From positions 1 through 42,335 of IMG/VR virus record IMGVR_UViG_3300048079_000052: a stretch of DNA of 42,335 bases; one strand, 5' to 3'. The DNA comes from a virus. Below the pieces are notes generated by a model. It worked only from the letters and a program-made list of their open reading frames with translations, made no database searches and had not been told where the DNA came from. A program made the position numbers and the translations under genes. Position 1 is the first letter of the stretch, and the number at the start of each line of letters is the position of its first letter. This document shows, one piece after another, positions 3,483-42,335 of this stretch.

Positions 3483-3953
3483 TCACTCGTGCGCCCTCTG
3501 GCGGCGATTGTTTGCCTGCTCAACATGACCGGCCCAGCGGACGTTCCCAGGTTCGTAGTGGCCGTCGTTGTTGATCCGGTCCAGCGTCTTGTTCGCAGGA
3601 CGTCGACCCAAGCAAGCGATGAACTGTTCATAGCTGTCGAACAAGAAGCAGATTCCACGGCCGCCGTAGTGTTTCCATTTAAGGTTGCGCGGATTCGTGC
3701 AGCGTTGTTTTGCGCCCTCGTAGGAGCGATATTCCTGTGCCACTTTCCCCCTGCGGGCATGTCCGTGGCGGAGGGTGACGCTGTTGCCTGGCTGAAACCG
3801 ATGCTGCTGCCCAACAGCGTTACCCGGCTGAAAAACGCTGCCATGCCCCTGCACAAAGCGAACTGCTTGGCCCTTCACGCGGCCATAGCGCCGGTCATTC
3901 CGCTTCGCAATGGGGGCAGGTTGACTACATCCGCACTCACACAGTTGCTGCAA
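3483..3953 (-). CDS. HNH-type homing endonuclease
   Basis: Protein of 156 residues, TTG start at 3953 with GGAGG four bases ahead. N-terminal module LCECGCSQPAPIA, then KGQAVRFVQGH; C-terminal nuclease/DNA-binding part with RCTNPRN, YGGRGI, FEQ-like YEQFIACLG, and LDRINNDGHYEPGNVRWA, followed by EQANNRR. It is a clear paralogue of the gene at 9142. A long stem-loop lies immediately upstream and may restrain its translation. Confidence 0.88.
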   Translation of the reverse strand: MQQLCECGCSQPAPIAKRNDRRYGRVKGQAVRFVQGHGSVFQPGNAVGQQHRFQPGNSVTLRHGHARRGKVAQEYRSYEGAKQRCTNPRNLKWKHYGGRGICFLFDSYEQFIACLGRRPANKTLDRINNDGHYEPGNVRWAGHVEQANNRRQRAHE

Positions 3954-4046: not shown

Positions 4047-4892
4047 CTATGCCGCGTCTGCCGGGATCGTCGCTTTCGGCGGACGCGGGATTTCTGGTTG
4101 CACTTCTTCCTTGAAGCTGCGCCAGTCTGCGGTCGCCCTCTGTTGCCACTCCCATAGCCGCTTCGCGTGTAGAAAAACTTCAAATGAGGTTTCTTCTGCA
4201 GCAGCCTCAACTACCTCAAAGTTTGGGTCTGTTTCTGTCTTGGGCAGACGAATCACTAAGCCGCGTACCGGATCTCCATGTCCCATTTCTCGGATCGCGT
4301 GCCGATAGGCGGCGTTTTGCAAATGGGACTCTGCGTAGACCGCCTTCCCTGTTTTCCAGTCGAGCACACTCAGTTCGCCATTCACTTCCGCCAGCAAATC
4401 AAGCGTGCCAGCGTAGCCGTGTGCATCGCTCCAAACGACTTGCTCAATGGCGATCGGTTTCAGATGCACCGACTTCTTCCAGTCTTCCCAAGCCATGAAC
4501 GCCCACTGTGCTTTGTCCGTGATTCGCGGAGAAGGCCCAGCCGCATAGAGCAGTTCCGCCCGCAGCGTCCACTCAATCAACGCATGGACCTGACTCCCAA
4601 TGTCGGCTGCCTTCTGCAACTCCTTCTTGTGAGCCTTCATCTTCCCGAGGCGCGATTGCATCGTCGAAATCCATGCGGTCAATGCCATGCGTGGAGTCTC
4701 TGCCACGTCTTGATATAGTTGACTGGAAACTTCCAAAACCAGTTCCCGCTCTACTTTCGCAGCCCAAGCGATCAATGCTGGTTTGGAAATTACTCCCAAA
4801 ATGTTGGTCACAGATGGTAGGAGGCCTACGCCTGGTATCTCGTAGAATCTGCCTCCGCTTTGTTGTCGTCGCACTTCTGTCGTTATTCCCAT
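4047..4892 (-). CDS. PD-(D/E)XK exonuclease (RecB/Cas4-type fold)
   Basis: About 281 residues from ATG 4892 (GGAGA six bases ahead); a TTG at 4913 would add seven. Nuclease motifs, numbered from the TTG: GSQVH with His110, GTLDLL with Asp172, LDWKTGK with Asp185 and Lys187, and Q-x3-Y (QNAAYRH). The N-terminal LPSVTNIL...KPALIAWAAK is typical of the phage members. Beside an SSB-like gene and in the same operon as RusA, it likely makes single-stranded ends for recombination or genome circularisation. Confidence 0.85.
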   Translation of the reverse strand: MGITTEVRRQQSGGRFYEIPGVGLLPSVTNILGVISKPALIAWAAKVERELVLEVSSQLYQDVAETPRMALTAWISTMQSRLGKMKAHKKELQKAADIGSQVHALIEWTLRAELLYAAGPSPRITDKAQWAFMAWEDWKKSVHLKPIAIEQVVWSDAHGYAGTLDLLAEVNGELSVLDWKTGKAVYAESHLQNAAYRHAIREMGHGDPVRGLVIRLPKTETDPNFEVVEAAAEETSFEVFLHAKRLWEWQQRATADWRSFKEEVQPEIPRPPKATIPADAA

Positions 4893-5295
4893 TTTGCTCT
4901 CCGTGTTTTTCAAGGTAAGCAGCAGCTAACCTCAGTTTATTTGGAGAATCATCTGCGTATCCAAGCACTCCATTACATTTCTTGCAGAGCAACTCACGCA
5001 CAGCTTTGGTTTTATGGTCATGGTCAACATGAAGTGGTTTTTCCTTATTTACCTGCTTGCAGATCGCACACCTTCCATGCTGCCTCTTAAACATGGCAGC
5101 ATAAACCCCAAGACCAAGTCCGTACTTCCAAGCTCTGTAGACATCTGCATGGACTTTCTTGCGGCCGATTCGATATTCCTTAAGCCTTTGGTCGTTAGCA
5201 GCCCTATACTTTTTATCGTACAGGCGCCTTTTCTCCCCATTTTTCTTTCGGTATTGCTTGAAATATTGTTTTTCTTTTTCACTCAGATGAGCCAT
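4573..5295 (-). CDS. Endonuclease VII-type HNH homing nuclease with run-on tail
   Basis: ATG 5295 (a GTG at 5298 is also possible). Residues 1-60 are basic and helical; the nuclease core follows: CAICKQ, LHVDHDHKT, VRELLCKKCNGVLGYADDS, then RLAAAYLEKHG, as in phage recombination endonuclease VII. After about residue 133 the frame continues for roughly 107 more residues inside the exonuclease gene in another frame, with low-grade composition. The natural stop was probably lost, or this insertion lies directly against its neighbour. Confidence 0.85.
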   Translation of the reverse strand: MAHLSEKEKQYFKQYRKKNGEKRRLYDKKYRAANDQRLKEYRIGRKKVHADVYRAWKYGLGLGVYAAMFKRQHGRCAICKQVNKEKPLHVDHDHKTKAVRELLCKKCNGVLGYADDSPNKLRLAAAYLEKHGEQNGNNDRSATTTKRRQILRDTRRRPPTICDQHFGSNFQTSIDRLGCESRAGTGFGSFQSTISRRGRDSTHGIDRMDFDDAIAPREDEGSQEGVAEGSRHWESGPCVD

Positions 5296-5303
5296 CACAA
5301 ACC

Positions 5304-5816
5304 TCAGAATGGCATTTCATCATCAGCGGGTTTTCCATTAGGGTTCTTCTCCAGTTCGGTACGCTTCGCACGTTCAACCATGCGGATGTAGTCGGTGTTC
5401 ACGCGCAGCTTCGCTGCTCCCTTTGCCGCTGGCACAACCGCCTGAACCTTGGCCCGGACTGTTCCCTCACTGTTCAGGTCATGGACAACTTGGATCTGGC
5501 AGTTTGCCCCGAGCAGCTTTTCAAGATCAAAGCCCTCCAGTTCTTGATGAGAGAACTTCCGCCCCCGCCAAGCTTCCAGCATGGGCCGCAAGCGCGACTT
5601 CTCATGGAGAGAAAGCGTGTAGCGTTGAACCACCATGAAAGGCTTTTCGACTTTCGAGTCGTGCTCTTCGAGCTGCCAGCGGATTTCCACTTGATGGCGT
5701 TCCCCCCAGGGGGAATCCAGCATTCCTAGATCAACCACGTCACAGCACACAGCAGCCCATAGGCCCTCCGGTGCTGGGGTGAAGTCTGTTTTGCTGGTTT
5801 TTGCAATGATGGCCAT
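5304..5816 (-). CDS. SSB-like phage protein with acidic PF tail
   Basis: Protein of 170 residues, ATG 5816 with AAGGAGG upstream. Beta-rich body (EGLWAAVCCDVVDLGM, VEIRWQLEE, YTLSLHEKS, GANCQIQVVHD) as in a widespread phage family next to exonucleases. The last residues, ADDEMPF, copy the DD-x-PF tip that bacterial SSB uses to bind partner proteins. Likely coats single-stranded DNA and works with the adjacent exonuclease. OB-fold identity is inferred. Confidence 0.7.
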   Translation of the reverse strand: MAIIAKTSKTDFTPAPEGLWAAVCCDVVDLGMLDSPWGERHQVEIRWQLEEHDSKVEKPFMVVQRYTLSLHEKSRLRPMLEAWRGRKFSHQELEGFDLEKLLGANCQIQVVHDLNSEGTVRAKVQAVVPAAKGAAKLRVNTDYIRMVERAKRTELEKNPNGKPADDEMPF

Positions 5817-5828
5817 GGTGTTGCCTCC

Positions 5829-6233
5829 TTAGAATCGGAATGGGGAAATGAACCCTTGAGTAATTCGCGCTGAACGTCGCGCCGCTTCCTGAGTTTGGGA
5901 AACGGCAGGGGGGAGTGGGGTGGCGTCCATGGCCGGGAAGTTGGCCGTTTCGGGAGGGTGCGTGGGAGAAGCATCCTCTGTGGTGACAGAGGATTCGGGC
6001 GCCACCCCGGCGAGCTCGTCCAAACCAAAAATCTGTTGCATCCCTCGGATGAAATAGCTGCGCAACGCTTCCAGGTGCTCGCGTTGCGGAAGCAGCATGG
6101 TTCGTCCGGCGATGATGTCGAAGGCTTCCTTCTCGAAGTCGCGCTCAAGTTCCTGATCCAGAAAATTGTTGAAGCCATTTCGCTGTTCGTAGCCGCATGC
6201 GCTGCAAATGGGAGTTCTCCTTTCAGTGAACAC
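5829..6233 (-). CDS. Hypothetical early protein with CxxC motif
   Basis: Protein of 134 residues. GTG 6233 overlaps the end of the upstream gene; AAAGGAG occurs only after it, so the true start may be slightly later. CSACGY near the N-terminus may bind metal with other residues. A helical middle (LLPQREHLEALRSYFIRGMQQIFG) is followed by a Pro/Thr-rich tail. Function unknown. Confidence 0.55.
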   Translation of the reverse strand: MFTERRTPICSACGYEQRNGFNNFLDQELERDFEKEAFDIIAGRTMLLPQREHLEALRSYFIRGMQQIFGLDELAGVAPESSVTTEDASPTHPPETANFPAMDATPLPPAVSQTQEAARRSARITQGFISPFRF

Positions 6234-6495
6234 TCACCGGACCGTTTCTCTCGAAGGACGGTCGGCGAGTCGTTTTTCCATTTTGTTTGGCTGGCCACAC
6301 CGCAATCGTGTCTTTGCTGGCAAAGCGCACCAACTGGCCGTGCGAGATCAGCACCCGCCGGCCGCAACGCCGGAAGCGCAACTGGCCCTGGGAGATCAGT
6401 AAGTCCAATGTTGAGGTGGAGATTGACAGCCACTGAGCAGCTTGTTTTCGGGAGTAGAGGCCGCGGGGCTGCTCCTGCGCTTCCACTGCGTTCAT
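6223..6495 (-). CDS. Excisionase-family helix-turn-helix protein
   Basis: Protein of 90 residues; ATG overlaps the upstream stop (ATGA). Residues about 13-60 match the HTH_17/MerR-like excisionase fold: LYSRKQAAQWLSISTSTLDLL as two pieces (LYSRKQAAQWLSIS, TSTLDLLISQGQL), then FRRCGRRVLISHGQLVRF. It could be the excision partner of the integrase or an early regulator. Second gene of the leftward operon. Confidence 0.75.
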   Translation of the reverse strand: MNAVEAQEQPRGLYSRKQAAQWLSISTSTLDLLISQGQLRFRRCGRRVLISHGQLVRFASKDTIAVWPAKQNGKTTRRPSFERNGPVSVH

Positions 6496-6674
6496 GCCGC
6501 CGCCCCCTGCCGTTCGAGCGCGGGCGCTATGCGCGCAAGCTCCAGCAGCACCAAGTCACGGACGAACGCCCCCTCGTCCTTGCCGACCTGCTTGGCTGCA
6601 AGCTGAAGTCTCTCGCGCTGGTCGTGCGTGAGGCGGAACATTACCCTGTCGGTCTTGCGCTGCTTGGTCACCAT
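6492..6674 (-). CDS. Ribbon-helix-helix regulator, first gene of the leftward operon
   Basis: Protein of 60 residues from ATG 6674. A basic N-terminus (TKQRKTDRVMFRLT) forms the presumed beta ribbon; two helices follow (HDQRERLQLAAKQVGK, EGAFVRDLVLLELARI). Arc/MobC/CopG-like size and layout. The ATG lies at the expected transcription start of the strong promoter just upstream, so the mRNA is probably leaderless here. Candidate repressor or anti-repressor of the operator palindromes at 6693-6784. Confidence 0.7.
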   Translation of the reverse strand: MVTKQRKTDRVMFRLTHDQRERLQLAAKQVGKDEGAFVRDLVLLELARIAPALERQGAAA

Positions 6675-6709
6675 GCTCTCAACGTACCTCAATGGCTGAC
6701 ACTTGTCAA
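6675..6709 (-). promoter_or_regulatory. Leftward early promoter
   Basis: On the minus strand TTGACA (6709-6704) and TACGTT (6686-6681) are separated by 17 bp. Six bases after the -10 box comes the ATG at 6674, so +1 should fall at or beside the A of the start codon. The palindrome TGACACTTGTCA (6697-6708) covers the -35 box and could be an operator. Confidence 0.75.
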
Positions 6710-6784
6710 GTTAATTCGCATCTTTGAACAAACTTTTCTGTCAGCCAAGGAAAACCCTTGACTAAAGAGGAGTTATGTCAGACA
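6693..6784. promoter_or_regulatory. Operator cluster of TGTCA palindromes
   Basis: TGACA-CT-TGTCA at 6697-6708 is a perfect palindrome of 5-bp arms. TGGCTGACA (6693-6701) and TGTCAGCCA (6739-6747) are exact reverse complements. TGTC-A-GACA (6776-6784) is a third palindrome. They lie between two divergent RHH genes. A weak rightward promoter candidate (TTGACT 6758-6763, 17 bp, GACAGT 6781-6786) overlaps the third site. Confidence 0.6.
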
Positions 6785-6921
6785 GTCGTCCCGCTATTCG
6801 CTCGACCTACTGGCCTCGGCAAAAAAAGAGAGAGCTCCAATGGGGAACGAAACCAAAACAAGAGTTCTTACCATTCGGCTGGACCCAACTCTTGGCATGT
6901 TATGCGATAGGGTCGCAGTAG
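6775..6921 (+). CDS. Possible 48-residue leader peptide
   Basis: ATG 6775 is preceded by an excellent ribosome site (AGAGGAG, two to three bases away) and the frame is open to TAG 6919-6921, overlapping the start of the rightward RHH gene in another frame. The peptide is basic (YWPRQKKRELQWGTKPKQ). It could couple translation into the RHH gene, or be chance: if the weak promoter at 6758 is used, transcription would begin after this ATG. Confidence 0.3.
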   Translation: MSDSRPAIRSTYWPRQKKRELQWGTKPKQEFLPFGWTQLLACYAIGSQ

Positions 6922-7112
6922 AACGAGGAGCGGCCGATTTGTCTGATTACATTCGTGGACTGCTGATCGCAGATGCGATTGCTTTGGGACACGTTCTTGT
7001 TGGAATTGAGGTCCCTAGCTGGGTGGTTGGCACAGTTCTGGATGTCCAGGGGAAAGTACCGGCCAGCGATGAGCTCAGGCGGATCAAAACACAAACAAAA
7101 AGATACGGATAA
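6840..7112 (+). CDS. Ribbon-helix-helix regulator upstream of the integrase
   Basis: Protein of 90 residues. Beta-ribbon segment TRVLTIRLD, then helices GMLCDRVAVERGA and DLSDYIRGLLIADAIA, the usual RHH arrangement. The last third (LVGIEVPSWVVGTVLD) is unassigned. The stop lies one base before the integrase ATG, so the two are cotranscribed. Divergent from the RHH gene at 6674, sharing the operator region; likely part of the lysogeny/integration control. Confidence 0.7.
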   Translation: MGNETKTRVLTIRLDPTLGMLCDRVAVERGAADLSDYIRGLLIADAIALGHVLVGIEVPSWVVGTVLDVQGKVPASDELRRIKTQTKRYG

Positions 7113-7113
7113 A

Positions 7114-8238
7114 ATGACCCACCCTCGCGGCATTTTCGAGAGACCACCAAATTCAAATGTCTGGTGGGTCAACTATTTCGAGCATGGCCGACGTCACCGC
7201 GAGCGCGTCGGCCCTCGCTCCCTGGCCATTGCCGTCTATCAGAAACGCAAAACCGAGATCCGCGAGGGGCATTTCTTCCCTCCCGGTCCACGCCGCCATC
7301 TCACCCTGCAAACCCTTGCCGAGCAAGCCCTTAAAGCCAAAGAGCTCAGAAACACTCCGTACTCGGTGCGCATGGACCGCATCCGCCTCAAGCGCCTGCT
7401 CGAGCATTTCGGCAGCATCACCGCCGCCGGCCTCACCAGTGGGGCTATCGAGGAGTTTATGGGCAAGCTGGCCTCCGTGGGTCGCTCCGGGGCCACCCTC
7501 AACCAATACCGCTCCCTGCTGTCGAGTTTCTACACCTTTGGGCTTCGCACCGCCCTCGTCAGCGTCAATCCCGTCGCCCGCGTTCCTCGCGCTCGCGTTT
7601 CTCCCGGCCGGATTCGCTTCCTTGACGCCAAGGAAGAAGCCCGACTCCGCCGCACACTCGACCCGCTCCCCTTCCACTGCGAAGCCGAACTTGATCTCTC
7701 GCTCAATACTGGCCTCCGCCGCGGCGAGCAATTCGCCCTGCGCTGGGATAAGGTGGACTTAAAGCGCGGCCTCTTGACCGTCGCTCGCGGCAAAACCGGC
7801 CTGCGGCACATTCCGCTCAATTCCGCCGCGCGCCGTGCTCTGAGCGTTCTCCGCCGCTACACCGGCCAAACTCCGTTCGTCTGTCCTTACGCTCATGGTC
7901 AGTTGCGCGATTGGCGCCGCTGGTTTGAAGCTGCCGTTAGGCGGGCCAAGCTGACAGATTTCCACTGGCACGATCTCCGGCACACCTTCGCCTCGCGCCT
8001 GGTCATGGCCGGCGTGGACTTGGCCAGCGTTCAAGCTCTGCTCGGCCATAAGACTGTGCAGATGACGTTGCGCTACGCGCACCTGGCTCCGGCACATCTC
8101 AAACGCGCTGTAGATGCCCTGTGTGATGGCCTTTCTTCGCACAGGGGAGCGCGTCGAGCGACGATCTCCTCCCGCCAGGACTCAGCAGCCACCAAAACAG
8201 GCTCTAGACAGCTGGTGCCTCTTGCCAGAAATTGTTAA
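7114..8238 (+). CDS. int: Tyrosine recombinase integrase
   Basis: Protein of 374 residues from ATG 7114, one base after the RHH stop (longer readings overlap that gene). Residues about 80-165 are the SAM-like core-binding domain. Catalytic residues all present: Arg202 (TGLRRGE), Lys227 (ARGKTG), His286 and Arg289 (HDLRH), His312 (LLGHK), Tyr321 (LRYAHL). It should integrate the phage at a host tRNA-Leu gene, since a tRNA half starts 18 bp after its stop. Convergent with the lysis genes. Confidence 0.95.
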   Translation: MTHPRGIFERPPNSNVWWVNYFEHGRRHRERVGPRSLAIAVYQKRKTEIREGHFFPPGPRRHLTLQTLAEQALKAKELRNTPYSVRMDRIRLKRLLEHFGSITAAGLTSGAIEEFMGKLASVGRSGATLNQYRSLLSSFYTFGLRTALVSVNPVARVPRARVSPGRIRFLDAKEEARLRRTLDPLPFHCEAELDLSLNTGLRRGEQFALRWDKVDLKRGLLTVARGKTGLRHIPLNSAARRALSVLRRYTGQTPFVCPYAHGQLRDWRRWFEAAVRRAKLTDFHWHDLRHTFASRLVMAGVDLASVQALLGHKTVQMTLRYAHLAPAHLKRAVDALCDGLSSHRGARRATISSRQDSAATKTGSRQLVPLARNC

Positions 8239-8256: not shown

Positions 8257-8295
8257 GCGGAAGTGGCGGAACTGGCAGACGCGCAGGACTTAGGA
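8257..8295 (+). tRNA. 5' half of tRNA-Leu (anticodon TAG): probable attP core
   Basis: The sequence matches a class II tRNA-Leu from its first base: acceptor strand GCGGAAG, D-arm GGCGGAACTGGCAGAC, anticodon stem CAGGA and loop CTTAGGA with anticodon TAG. The expected pairing 3' stem (TCCTG) is absent and no T-arm or acceptor complement follows, so the gene is only a half. It lies directly after int and is the natural crossover identity block. Integration would give a hybrid tRNA whose 5' half and upstream DNA come from the phage. Confidence 0.75.
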
Positions 8296-9141: not shown

Positions 9142-9582
9142 TTATGCCACCCGCTTCTGTGCCCGCTGGTTCTGCCGTTGCTCGCTACGCGTAGCCCACC
9201 GCACGTTGCCGGGGTCATAGTCGCCGTCATTGTTGACGCGGTCCAGCGTCATCCCGGATGGTCTCGCGCCTAGTGTGGCGATGAACTGCTCGAAGCTTGT
9301 GAACAAAAACTGGATGCCGCGACCGCCGTAGCGGGGCCACTCCTTTCTGCGCGGATTAGTGCAGCGGGCTCTTGCGCTGTGAAAAGCACTATATTCTGGT
9401 GTCAACTTTCCTTGGCGGGCACCTCCATGACGCAGAGTCAGGGTATGGCCAGGCACGAAAGAGTGCTTGTTGTGACCGCGCACAAAACGAACCGCTTGGC
9501 CCTTCACATAGCCTCTAGAGGCGTCCGTAAACGTCGAAATTGGCGCGGGTTGGCCACAGCCGCACTCGCAGAGTTTAATCAT
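9142..9582 (-). CDS. HNH-type homing endonuclease in the lysis cassette
   Basis: Protein of 146 residues; ATG overlaps the end of the upstream gene by 8 bp. N-terminal LCECGCGQPAPIS, then KGQAVRFVRGH; later RCTNPRR, YGGRGI, FEQFIATLG, LDRVNNDGDYDPGNVRWA, EQRQNQR. Clear paralogue of 3483-3953. It separates the DUF5675 protein from the spanin-like gene, so is an insertion between lysis genes. Confidence 0.88.
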   Translation of the reverse strand: MIKLCECGCGQPAPISTFTDASRGYVKGQAVRFVRGHNKHSFVPGHTLTLRHGGARQGKLTPEYSAFHSARARCTNPRRKEWPRYGGRGIQFLFTSFEQFIATLGARPSGMTLDRVNNDGDYDPGNVRWATRSEQRQNQRAQKRVA

Positions 9583-38900: not shown

Positions 38901-39065
38901 CTACCGGTATACCTTTGAGGTTTTCTTTGGGGCAGAAAAGAGCTTTTCCTCGGTGGTGAACCGCTTCCCACAGAAACGACATTCCCGCCTGCGCCGGAGC
39001 ACGGTGTCCTTGTGCCGGTTTATGATGACTCGAGTTTTTCCGCTTCCGCAGTACGGACAAAGCAA
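38901..39065 (-). CDS. NrdR-type zinc-ribbon protein, stand-alone
   Basis: About 54 residues from TTG 39065, chosen because GAGGAG precedes it and because it clears the HNH gene (an ATG at 39170 would overlap it by 68 bp). LCPYCGSGKT, then RRRRECRFCGKRFTTEEK is the zinc ribbon of the ribonucleotide-reductase repressor NrdR, without its ATP-cone domain. A small DNA-binding regulator or cofactor. Confidence 0.7.
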   Translation of the reverse strand: MLCPYCGSGKTRVIINRHKDTVLRRRRECRFCGKRFTTEEKLFSAPKKTSKVYR

Positions 39066-39102
39066 GCTGATTCTCTCCTCATGGCTTTGCGCATTTCGTT
39101 CG

Positions 39103-39588
39103 CTACCTTCTGTTAGCCGCCTGCTCTTTCTTCGTCGCCCATCGACAGTTGCTTGGCGAATAGTCTCCATCGTTATCGATCCGGTCGATTGAATGCGTTG
39201 GCGAAGGCCGAAAGCCGGTGTCTTTGAAGAATGCCTTGAAACTTTGACGCCACCTCTCGCACACTTTAATGCCCCGCCCACCGTACCGTGCGTAGCGATT
39301 CGTGCGCGGATTCTCACAGCGCTGTTTCATCTGTATCCACGCAGTATATTCGGCCCATCTCCTCCCTTTTCTTTTTGCTCCATGGCGCGTGCGGACGTCT
39401 ATTTGAAGACAGCCACAACTCCGTGTATGACCGGTTCGCAAGTCATCACCACGAACGATTCGGTCTTTCCCACACGCGCAGCGACAACACCATCGTGCTA
39501 CTCCACGTCGATTACTTGTCGCACGGTTCACCACGGTAAAGCGTCCAAACTGCTGACCAGCCATTTCGATAACGCGGTTAGGCTTCAC
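39103..39588 (-). CDS. HNH/AP2-like homing endonuclease
   Basis: Protein of 161 residues; GTG 39588 with AGGAG seven bases ahead. N-terminal module [38 protein letters not shown], typical of phage HNH homing nucleases; C-terminal [50 protein letters not shown]. Shares the C-terminal DNA-binding/nuclease block with the genes at 3483 and 9142 but has a different N-terminal module. Confidence 0.88.
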
Positions 39589-41928: not shown

Positions 41929-42335
41929 CGAACTCCCCTTCGAGCACTCGCGAAATGTTTCGGTCGTTGCGGATCAGGAAATCAAAATTCGCTTTCCAGC
42001 CGCGGTCGTTCTTGCCCGATAGGAATGGGCTGGCCCGACAGCGGATCACCGCCTCACGGAACTGCTCCGGGGTGTACTGCTTCGCTCGCCGCTGGCAGTT
42101 GCGCAGTCGGCTTGGGGTCAGCTTTTCGATTCCTGGCAGGGATCCGTGCTCTTCCTGCCAGATTTGAGCAAAGGGGTGGGTAGGGGGGATGTCTCGCGCC
42201 AGCGAGACAGGGGGGGGCTTCTCTTCTCTTTCAGGACGGTTATAGGACGGTTCAGGACGGATAGGGCGTCTCTCTGACGCCCCTGCGCGACTGTCTGACG
42301 CCCCCCCTGCGTCTCTCTGACGCCCCTGCGCGACT
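41789..42335 (-). CDS. Replication initiator, C-terminal part (same gene as 10-449)
   Basis: This is the continuation of the initiator across the circular join. Positions 42210-42335 duplicate 10-135; new sequence starts at 42209. The C-terminal half has a segment typical of phage initiator and DnaD-type proteins (THPFAQIWQEEHG, then KLTPSRLRNCQRRAKQY), followed by WKANFDFLIRNDRNISRVLEGEF, a motif common near the end of such proteins and probably used for partner contacts. The last 140 bp overlap the start of the loader-like gene in another frame. Confidence 0.8.
   Translation of the reverse strand, partial: VAQGRQRDAGGASDSRAGASERRPIRPEPSYNRPEREEKPPPVSLARDIPPTHPFAQIWQEEHGSLPGIEKLTPSRLRNCQRRAKQYTPEQFREAVIRCRASPFLSGKNDRGWKANFDFLIRNDRNISRVLEGEFDGTAQTKSDQRLVGNLEAAKRFLERHGEADRRLAGAVRHALTGRSQ
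42210..42335. repeat. Terminal direct repeat, right copy (circular overlap)
   Basis: Identical to positions 10-135. It carries a second copy of the short GGACGG repeats and the first three iterons. After removing one copy the unique map is about 42,200 bp. Confidence 0.9.

Follow-up and report, generated by a model that had tools for sequence, protein, structure and literature searches.

Two divergent genes for putative ribbon-helix-helix proteins, coupled to integrase and excisionase, form a candidate lysis-lysogeny switch in an uncultured phage

In the immI region of phage P22 the mnt and arc promoters are divergent, and in phage P2 the integrase shares an operon with the lysogeny repressor. 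P22 Mnt (82 aa) represses arc and ant, Arc (53 aa) represses mnt and damps ant, and both work beside a C2 repressor (PMC11016777, PMC7549136). In P2-like phages, whose promoters are face to face, the early genes begin with the excisionase, which regulates both the lytic and the lysogenic promoters (PMC7498355). In the archaeal virus SSV1, the chief viral factor that maintains lysogeny is F55, a ribbon-helix-helix (RHH) protein of 55 aa that binds repeats located in the early promoters (PMC9608457). Among 182 Pf prophages, 12 have an Arc-family gene next to xis instead of the repressor C gene (pf4r) (PMC7549136). RHH proteins are thus already known in lysogeny control, as Mnt/Arc and F55 illustrate. 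In the open-licence literature, we found no phage described with a divergent RHH pair that is coupled to int and xis and forms the only visible switch.

The DNA analysed here, called the window, is a whole IMG/VR virus record of 42,335 nt. Its ends are identical over 126 nt (10-135 = 42210-42335), and this overlap indicates that the genome is closed. The window appears to be a soil-type virus of bacteria and carries the tailed-phage genes for portal, terminase, major head and head-closure proteins. Every annotated gene lies on the minus strand, except RHH2 and the integrase. The locus reads att - int - RHH2, then divergently RHH1 - xis - early genes, the place of att being given by a tRNA half only. 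The features are as follows.

4047..6233, minus: rest of the early operon (g5829, 170-aa protein, endonuclease VII, exonuclease), syntenic with L019 and L020
4047-4913, minus: PD-(D/E)XK exonuclease, early operon
4573-5298, minus: endonuclease VII, early operon
5304-5816, minus: conserved 170-aa protein, early operon
6223..6495, minus: XIS, 90-aa excisionase-type HTH protein (TIGR01764, phrog_66)
6492..6674, minus: RHH1, ORF of 60 aa, first gene of the leftward early operon
6840..7112, plus: RHH2, 90 aa with a C-terminal extension, first gene of the integrase operon
7114..8238, plus: tyrosine integrase, 374 aa (PF00589 5e-28, phrog_1 4e-61)
8257..8295, plus: tRNA-Leu(UAG) 5'-half-like sequence, candidate attP (sequence inspection; exact 39-nt match in a bacterial genome)

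We propose, with a probability of roughly 55%, that this region is a compact switch for both lysis-lysogeny and recombination direction, made of two mutually opposed operons. The best reading of the comparisons is that its parts would be P22 Mnt/Arc-like and its gene order P2-like. P22 Arc/Mnt had been named as the nearest parallel by a sequence-only reading of this DNA, and the comparison is apt. Provided that RHH2 is taken as an RHH protein, the window and two uncultured phages, L019 and L070, all have two small divergent RHH genes, with the longer one on what would be the lysogenic side and the shorter one first in the putative lytic-side operon. Yet immI controls the antirepressor gene ant, whereas in the window the excisionase follows RHH1; P22 has a primary C2 repressor, whereas no C2-like gene was found in the window; and the RHH proteins of the window fall outside the Pfam Arc family. 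Because RHH1 is coupled to the excisionase, the P2/186 switch is as close a parallel, and its order (att-int-repressor, then early regulator/excisionase-early genes) is also that of the window. The repressors of P2/186 are, however, HTH proteins and not RHH proteins, the window has a proposed regulator (RHH1) that is distinct from its excisionase (XIS), and the promoters predicted in the window are back-to-back, unlike the face-to-face promoters of P2-like phages (PMC7498355). SSV1 differs in being an archaeal virus with a single RHH protein, which has no opposing RHH and is not coupled to int/xis. Pf is a filamentous phage with one RHH gene and no divergent RHH-int operon.

Codon usage clearly supported the reading frame of RHH1, which starts at the ATG at 6674 and not at the TTG at 6692. 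In its AlphaFold model (pLDDT 81), a beta-strand is followed by helices at residues 17-30 and 34-59. The top Foldseek matches of this model were Arc, PutA, CopASO, AmrZ and MazE, with probabilities of 0.90-0.98 and E-values all above 0.4, as expected at 60 residues, and a profile of four positional relatives (the RHH1 group) matched RHH structures at an E-value of 2e-5. The only Pfam match of RHH1 was to the NikA-like family PF21983 (2e-4, below cut-off); the Arc family PF03869 was matched by neither RHH1 nor RHH2 of the window. By prediction, then, RHH1 has a ribbon-helix-helix fold of the Arc/CopG/MetJ type.

The end of RHH1 and the start of XIS overlap by 4 nt (6492-6495), a coupling that the sequence-only reading had overlooked. 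XIS scored 30.3 bits against TIGR01764 (excise; cut-off 28.8), which makes it a member of the excisionase family. It also matched phrog_66, 'excisionase and transcriptional regulator', at 4e-5, and was 44-47% identical to its counterparts in L019, L070 and a further relative, L072. Further down the operon, the endonuclease VII and exonuclease ORFs share 341 nt (4573-4913, minus) in different frames.

RHH2 was more difficult to classify. Its frame is only weakly favoured by codon usage, its N-terminus was modelled as beta-alpha-alpha with low confidence (pLDDT 65), Foldseek gave nothing, and the protein alone matched no family in Pfam or NCBIfam. By contrast, when the RHH2 proteins of the window, L019 and L070 were compared as a trio with the RHH1 group, hhalign returned a probability of 89% and an E-value of 2e-6 over the RHH core, and the RHH2-like protein of L070 matched the Arc-like repressor phrog_3431 at 1e-4. 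Judged from these alignments, RHH2 is probably an RHH protein, though less certainly so than RHH1. The earlier description of two divergent RHH genes therefore stands for the divergence of the ORFs and, by model, for RHH1, while for RHH2 it depends on the profile alignment. In our reading of that alignment, the strand residues predicted to face the DNA are V-T-R in RHH2 and R-M-R in RHH1, and the two proteins may for this reason differ in the half-site that they recognize.

RHH2 is tightly coupled to the integrase, as had been claimed: its stop codon ends at 7112 and the integrase ATG is at 7114, which leaves a spacing of 1 nt. The candidate attP begins 18 nt past the integrase stop codon and extends over 39 nt to the end of the anticodon loop of a tRNA-Leu(UAG). 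Neither ARAGORN nor Rfam called a tRNA at 8257-8295. An exact copy of the 39 nt was found in 1 of 189 bacterial genomes, all of one phylum; in this genome (L099) it lies at a contig end and is followed by non-tRNA sequence. The window seems to carry the 5' half of the tRNA as opposed to the 3' half that is usual in phages. Relatives of the integrase in bacterial genomes were distant (25-43% identity over most of the length; one match of 54 residues at 61%), and in a crude pattern search none of those examined had a convincing RHH gene beside it.

RHH1 and RHH2 diverge from an intergenic region of 165 nt (6675-6839), which contains the following candidate elements.

6681..6709, minus: leftward (RHH1) promoter, -35 TTGACA at 6709-6704, 17-nt spacer, -10 TACGTT at 6686-6681
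6758..6786, plus: candidate rightward (RHH2-int) promoter, TTGACT-17-GACAGT
6697-6708, no strand: 12-nt palindrome TGACACTTGTCA (TGACA-CT-TGTCA), candidate operator over the leftward -35 and spacer
6693-6701, minus: half-site TGTCAGCCA (the plus strand reads TGGCTGACA), inverted copy of 6739-6747
6739-6747, plus: half-site TGTCAGCCA, between the two promoters
6776-6784, no strand: 9-nt palindrome TGTCAGACA (TGTC-A-GACA), touching the -10 of the candidate rightward promoter

As a prediction, the leftward promoter is convincing, and TTGAC(A/G)-17 was also the best-scoring site before RHH1 in L019, L070 and the relative L020. The predicted transcript start is at or adjoining the RHH1 ATG, and because of this coincidence the RHH1 mRNA may be leaderless, in which case it would differ from that of L019 and L070. 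The rightward promoter is marginal and scored below the threshold of a standard scan. The two predicted promoters diverge back-to-back, with their -35 elements about 48 nt apart.

Three TGTCA-based palindromes had been described on these promoters. There are in fact one of 12 nt, one of 9 nt and a half-site with a distant inverted partner. The proposed positions were partly borne out, as the 12-nt palindrome overlaps the leftward -35 and the 9-nt palindrome touches the rightward -10, which belongs to a marginal promoter. Four copies of TGTCA occur in the 165 nt (two in TGACACTTGTCA, one in TGTCAGCCA at 6739 and one in TGTCAGACA); no other cluster of this kind occurs in the 42 kb, which hold 47 copies in all. 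The exact TGACANNTGTCA occurred a single time in the window, at the 6697-6708 palindrome, and TGTC-A-GACA had one match, with at least one match also in 40 of 100 shuffles of the window. The most clustered word of the region was TGACA/CTGACA, and its clustering was equalled by 5-6 of 300 random genome regions (about 2%), allowing any 5- or 6-mer. A 9-mer shuffle test of the intergenic repeats was not significant (16 of 120 shuffles did as well). By themselves, the intergenic repeats are not compelling. A TGTCA operator common to the switch in its relatives was also considered and had to be rejected: the motif was not found in L019 and L070, neither shares the TGTCA cluster, and no operator-like motif as clear as that of the window was seen in them. 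TGTCTGAC repeats at the genome ends were likewise dropped as further RHH operators, as they are part of a 21-nt iteron array in a replication gene.

A 48-aa ORF (6775-6921, plus) starts in the last TGTCA site behind a strong Shine-Dalgarno sequence, AAAGAGGAG, and overlaps the start of RHH2 in another frame. Codon usage gives it no support; it could be a leader peptide.

The iteron array comprises about five iterons of 21-22 nt, of the type GCGACTCTCTGACGCCCCTGC, at 66-170 (same as 42266-42335). They sit within a replication-initiator-like ORF of 286 aa (HTH_36 match, 3e-14) that spans the genome junction (41789 to 449, minus); the iterons in this gene probably mark an origin of the lambda O type. 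The ORF at 38901-39317 (minus), which lies between the genes for replication and those for packaging, has an NrdR-like zinc ribbon (38901-39060, 1e-11) and might encode a late-transcription regulator. HNH-type nucleases are found at 1183-2019 and 39103-39588 (both minus), and two further ORFs (3483-3953 and 9142-9582, minus) are HNH-like in look, being named from reading only. With endonuclease VII added, the load of possible homing-type nucleases is heavy.

We infer a regulatory function for the RHH pair, in which RHH1 is proposed to be an Arc/Cro-like lytic-side regulator and RHH2 a Mnt/CI-like lysogeny-side repressor. The binding of the two proteins, their mutual repression and the side that each serves would be as follows. 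The rightward operon consists of RHH2 followed by the integrase, and the leftward one of RHH1, the excisionase and then the replication and recombination genes. RHH2, the longer protein, would bind over the leftward promoter, with TGACACTTGTCA on the -35 as the candidate site, and in the prophage it would keep the early operon and the excisionase silent. During establishment, its operon would be the source of integrase. RHH1, the short first early product, would repress the RHH2-int promoter after induction and damp its own promoter, like Arc acting on mnt and ant in P22. Since int and xis are each tied to a different one of the two putative repressors, a single decision would govern transcription as well as the direction of site-specific recombination.

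Relatives that share the early block of the window were gathered through the exonuclease, and one more was added by alignment of the excisionase. When viral contigs were scanned directly with RHH1 and RHH2 of the window, no relatives turned up, and with RHH2 of L070 and RHH1 of L019 as queries nothing was found among 50,697 phage records. L019 and L070 have the gene order of the window, with INT and RHH2-like on one side and RHH1-like and XIS on the other:

L019, 4871-5962, minus: INT of the cassette
L019, 6167-6550, minus: RHH2-like gene of the cassette
L019, 6635-6805, plus: RHH1-like gene of the cassette
L019, 6966-7190, plus: XIS of the cassette
L070, 1957-3180, minus: INT of the cassette
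L070, 3586-3885, minus: RHH2-like gene of the cassette
L070, 3973-4167, plus: RHH1-like gene of the cassette
L070, 4422-4646, plus: XIS of the cassette

The L019 genome is closed (112-nt end overlap); the ends of the L070 record do not overlap, and this record may be incomplete. In both, a small protein is encoded between RHH1-like and XIS. Small coiled-coil-like ORFs lie between RHH2 and the integrase (5962-6237 in L019 and 3205-3429 in L070, both minus) and are not found in the window. Identity to the window was 43% (L070) and 31% (L019) for INT and 46-47% for XIS, while the RHH proteins of the three phages are barely alignable. The position of the cassette is thus conserved and its sequence is not. 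Immunity genes commonly keep their position while their sequence diverges. The recurrence of the architecture in two independent phages indicates that it is likely a functional unit.

The relative L020 is closed and lacks both int and xis. RHH1 alone heads its early operon, which is the same as that of the window, and it is the only one of these proteins that reaches the Arc family PF03869. A role of RHH1 as autoregulator of the early operon fits this arrangement, which suggests that RHH1 regulates the early operon and that its partner gene and the integration genes are gained and lost along with lysogeny. An integrase is present in 5 of the 22 related records. No RHH pair was seen in L072, which has xis and int, or at the integrase loci of three others (G013, G016 and G020).

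The sequence-only reading had seen no CI-like or Cro-like repressor, and this was confirmed. In the window, L019, L070, L072 and L020, the only HTH_3 stretch was one of 33 residues within the HNH nuclease at 1183-2019 in the window, and no S24 domain was found in any of these records. Pfam scans of 20 further small window proteins revealed no CI-like repressor, and no HTH_3 gene adjoins int in the window, where its neighbour is RHH2. A classical repressor elsewhere in the closed genome was looked for and not found, and the window does not have the HTH_3 repressors, with CI carrying an S24 autoprotease, that make up a lambda CI/Cro-type switch.

We considered the possibility that the two proteins are local autoregulators, one (RHH1) tuning the early operon, with xis included, and the other (RHH2) tuning int. 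The pair would then set the timing of recombination, and lysogeny would be kept by another, unrecognised repressor, or there would be no stable immunity. Several early genes are without annotation, and a novel repressor with no recognisable domain could be among them; the Mnt/Arc pair of P22 is itself secondary, beside C2 (PMC11016777); and most of the relatives found through the exonuclease have no integrase, as if lysogeny were an add-on in this clade. Against this, a CI/LexA-type domain is absent from all cassette-bearing records searched, and in three phages the pair lies exactly where an immunity switch would be placed, with int on one side and the early operon on the other. We regard this explanation as unlikely, although it is the best of the alternatives.

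Less likely again is a P2-like variant in which RHH2 is the lysogeny repressor, XIS is an excisionase and repressor of the Cox type, and RHH1 is accessory. The phrog_66 and TIGR01764 matches of XIS, its better conservation than that of RHH1 and the regulation of lytic and lysogenic promoters by the excisionase of P2-like phages (PMC7498355) would be in keeping with such a role. Yet the first early gene is RHH1 and not XIS, and L020 retains RHH1 without xis.

The RHH proteins could also be architectural partners of the integrase reaction near attP and not regulators of transcription, as might be suggested by the relaxosome protein NikA being the sole Pfam match of RHH1 and by the coupling of both genes to recombination genes. 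This is improbable, since the TGTCA cluster lies between the promoters, away from the candidate attP at 8257, and RHH1 is kept in L020, which has neither int nor xis. Least probable of all is that they are orphan antitoxins or relics of plasmid copy control with no switching role: the RHH proteins of the relatives are weakly similar to RelB-like antitoxins and to the copy-control protein ORF56, but no toxin or rep gene lies next to the RHH genes, and this reading would not explain why their position relative to int and xis is conserved in three phages.

Returning to the switch of two opposed operons, a broader claim can be put forward tentatively, at somewhat less than even odds: that in a group of uncultured temperate phages an opposed RHH pair, each member translationally coupled to int or xis, is a bistable arrangement and the only immunity switch, with no CI, C2 or LexA-like protein. 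The order int-RHH, then divergently RHH-xis, would offer a recognisable signature for temperate phages that CI-seeking pipelines would call repressor-less, and it raises the question of how such a switch is induced without a RecA-cleavable repressor. If the claim is true, the RHH parts of what is a secondary immunity region in P22 can serve as the main lysis-lysogeny decision, and gene coupling alone can wire a repressor to the direction of recombination.
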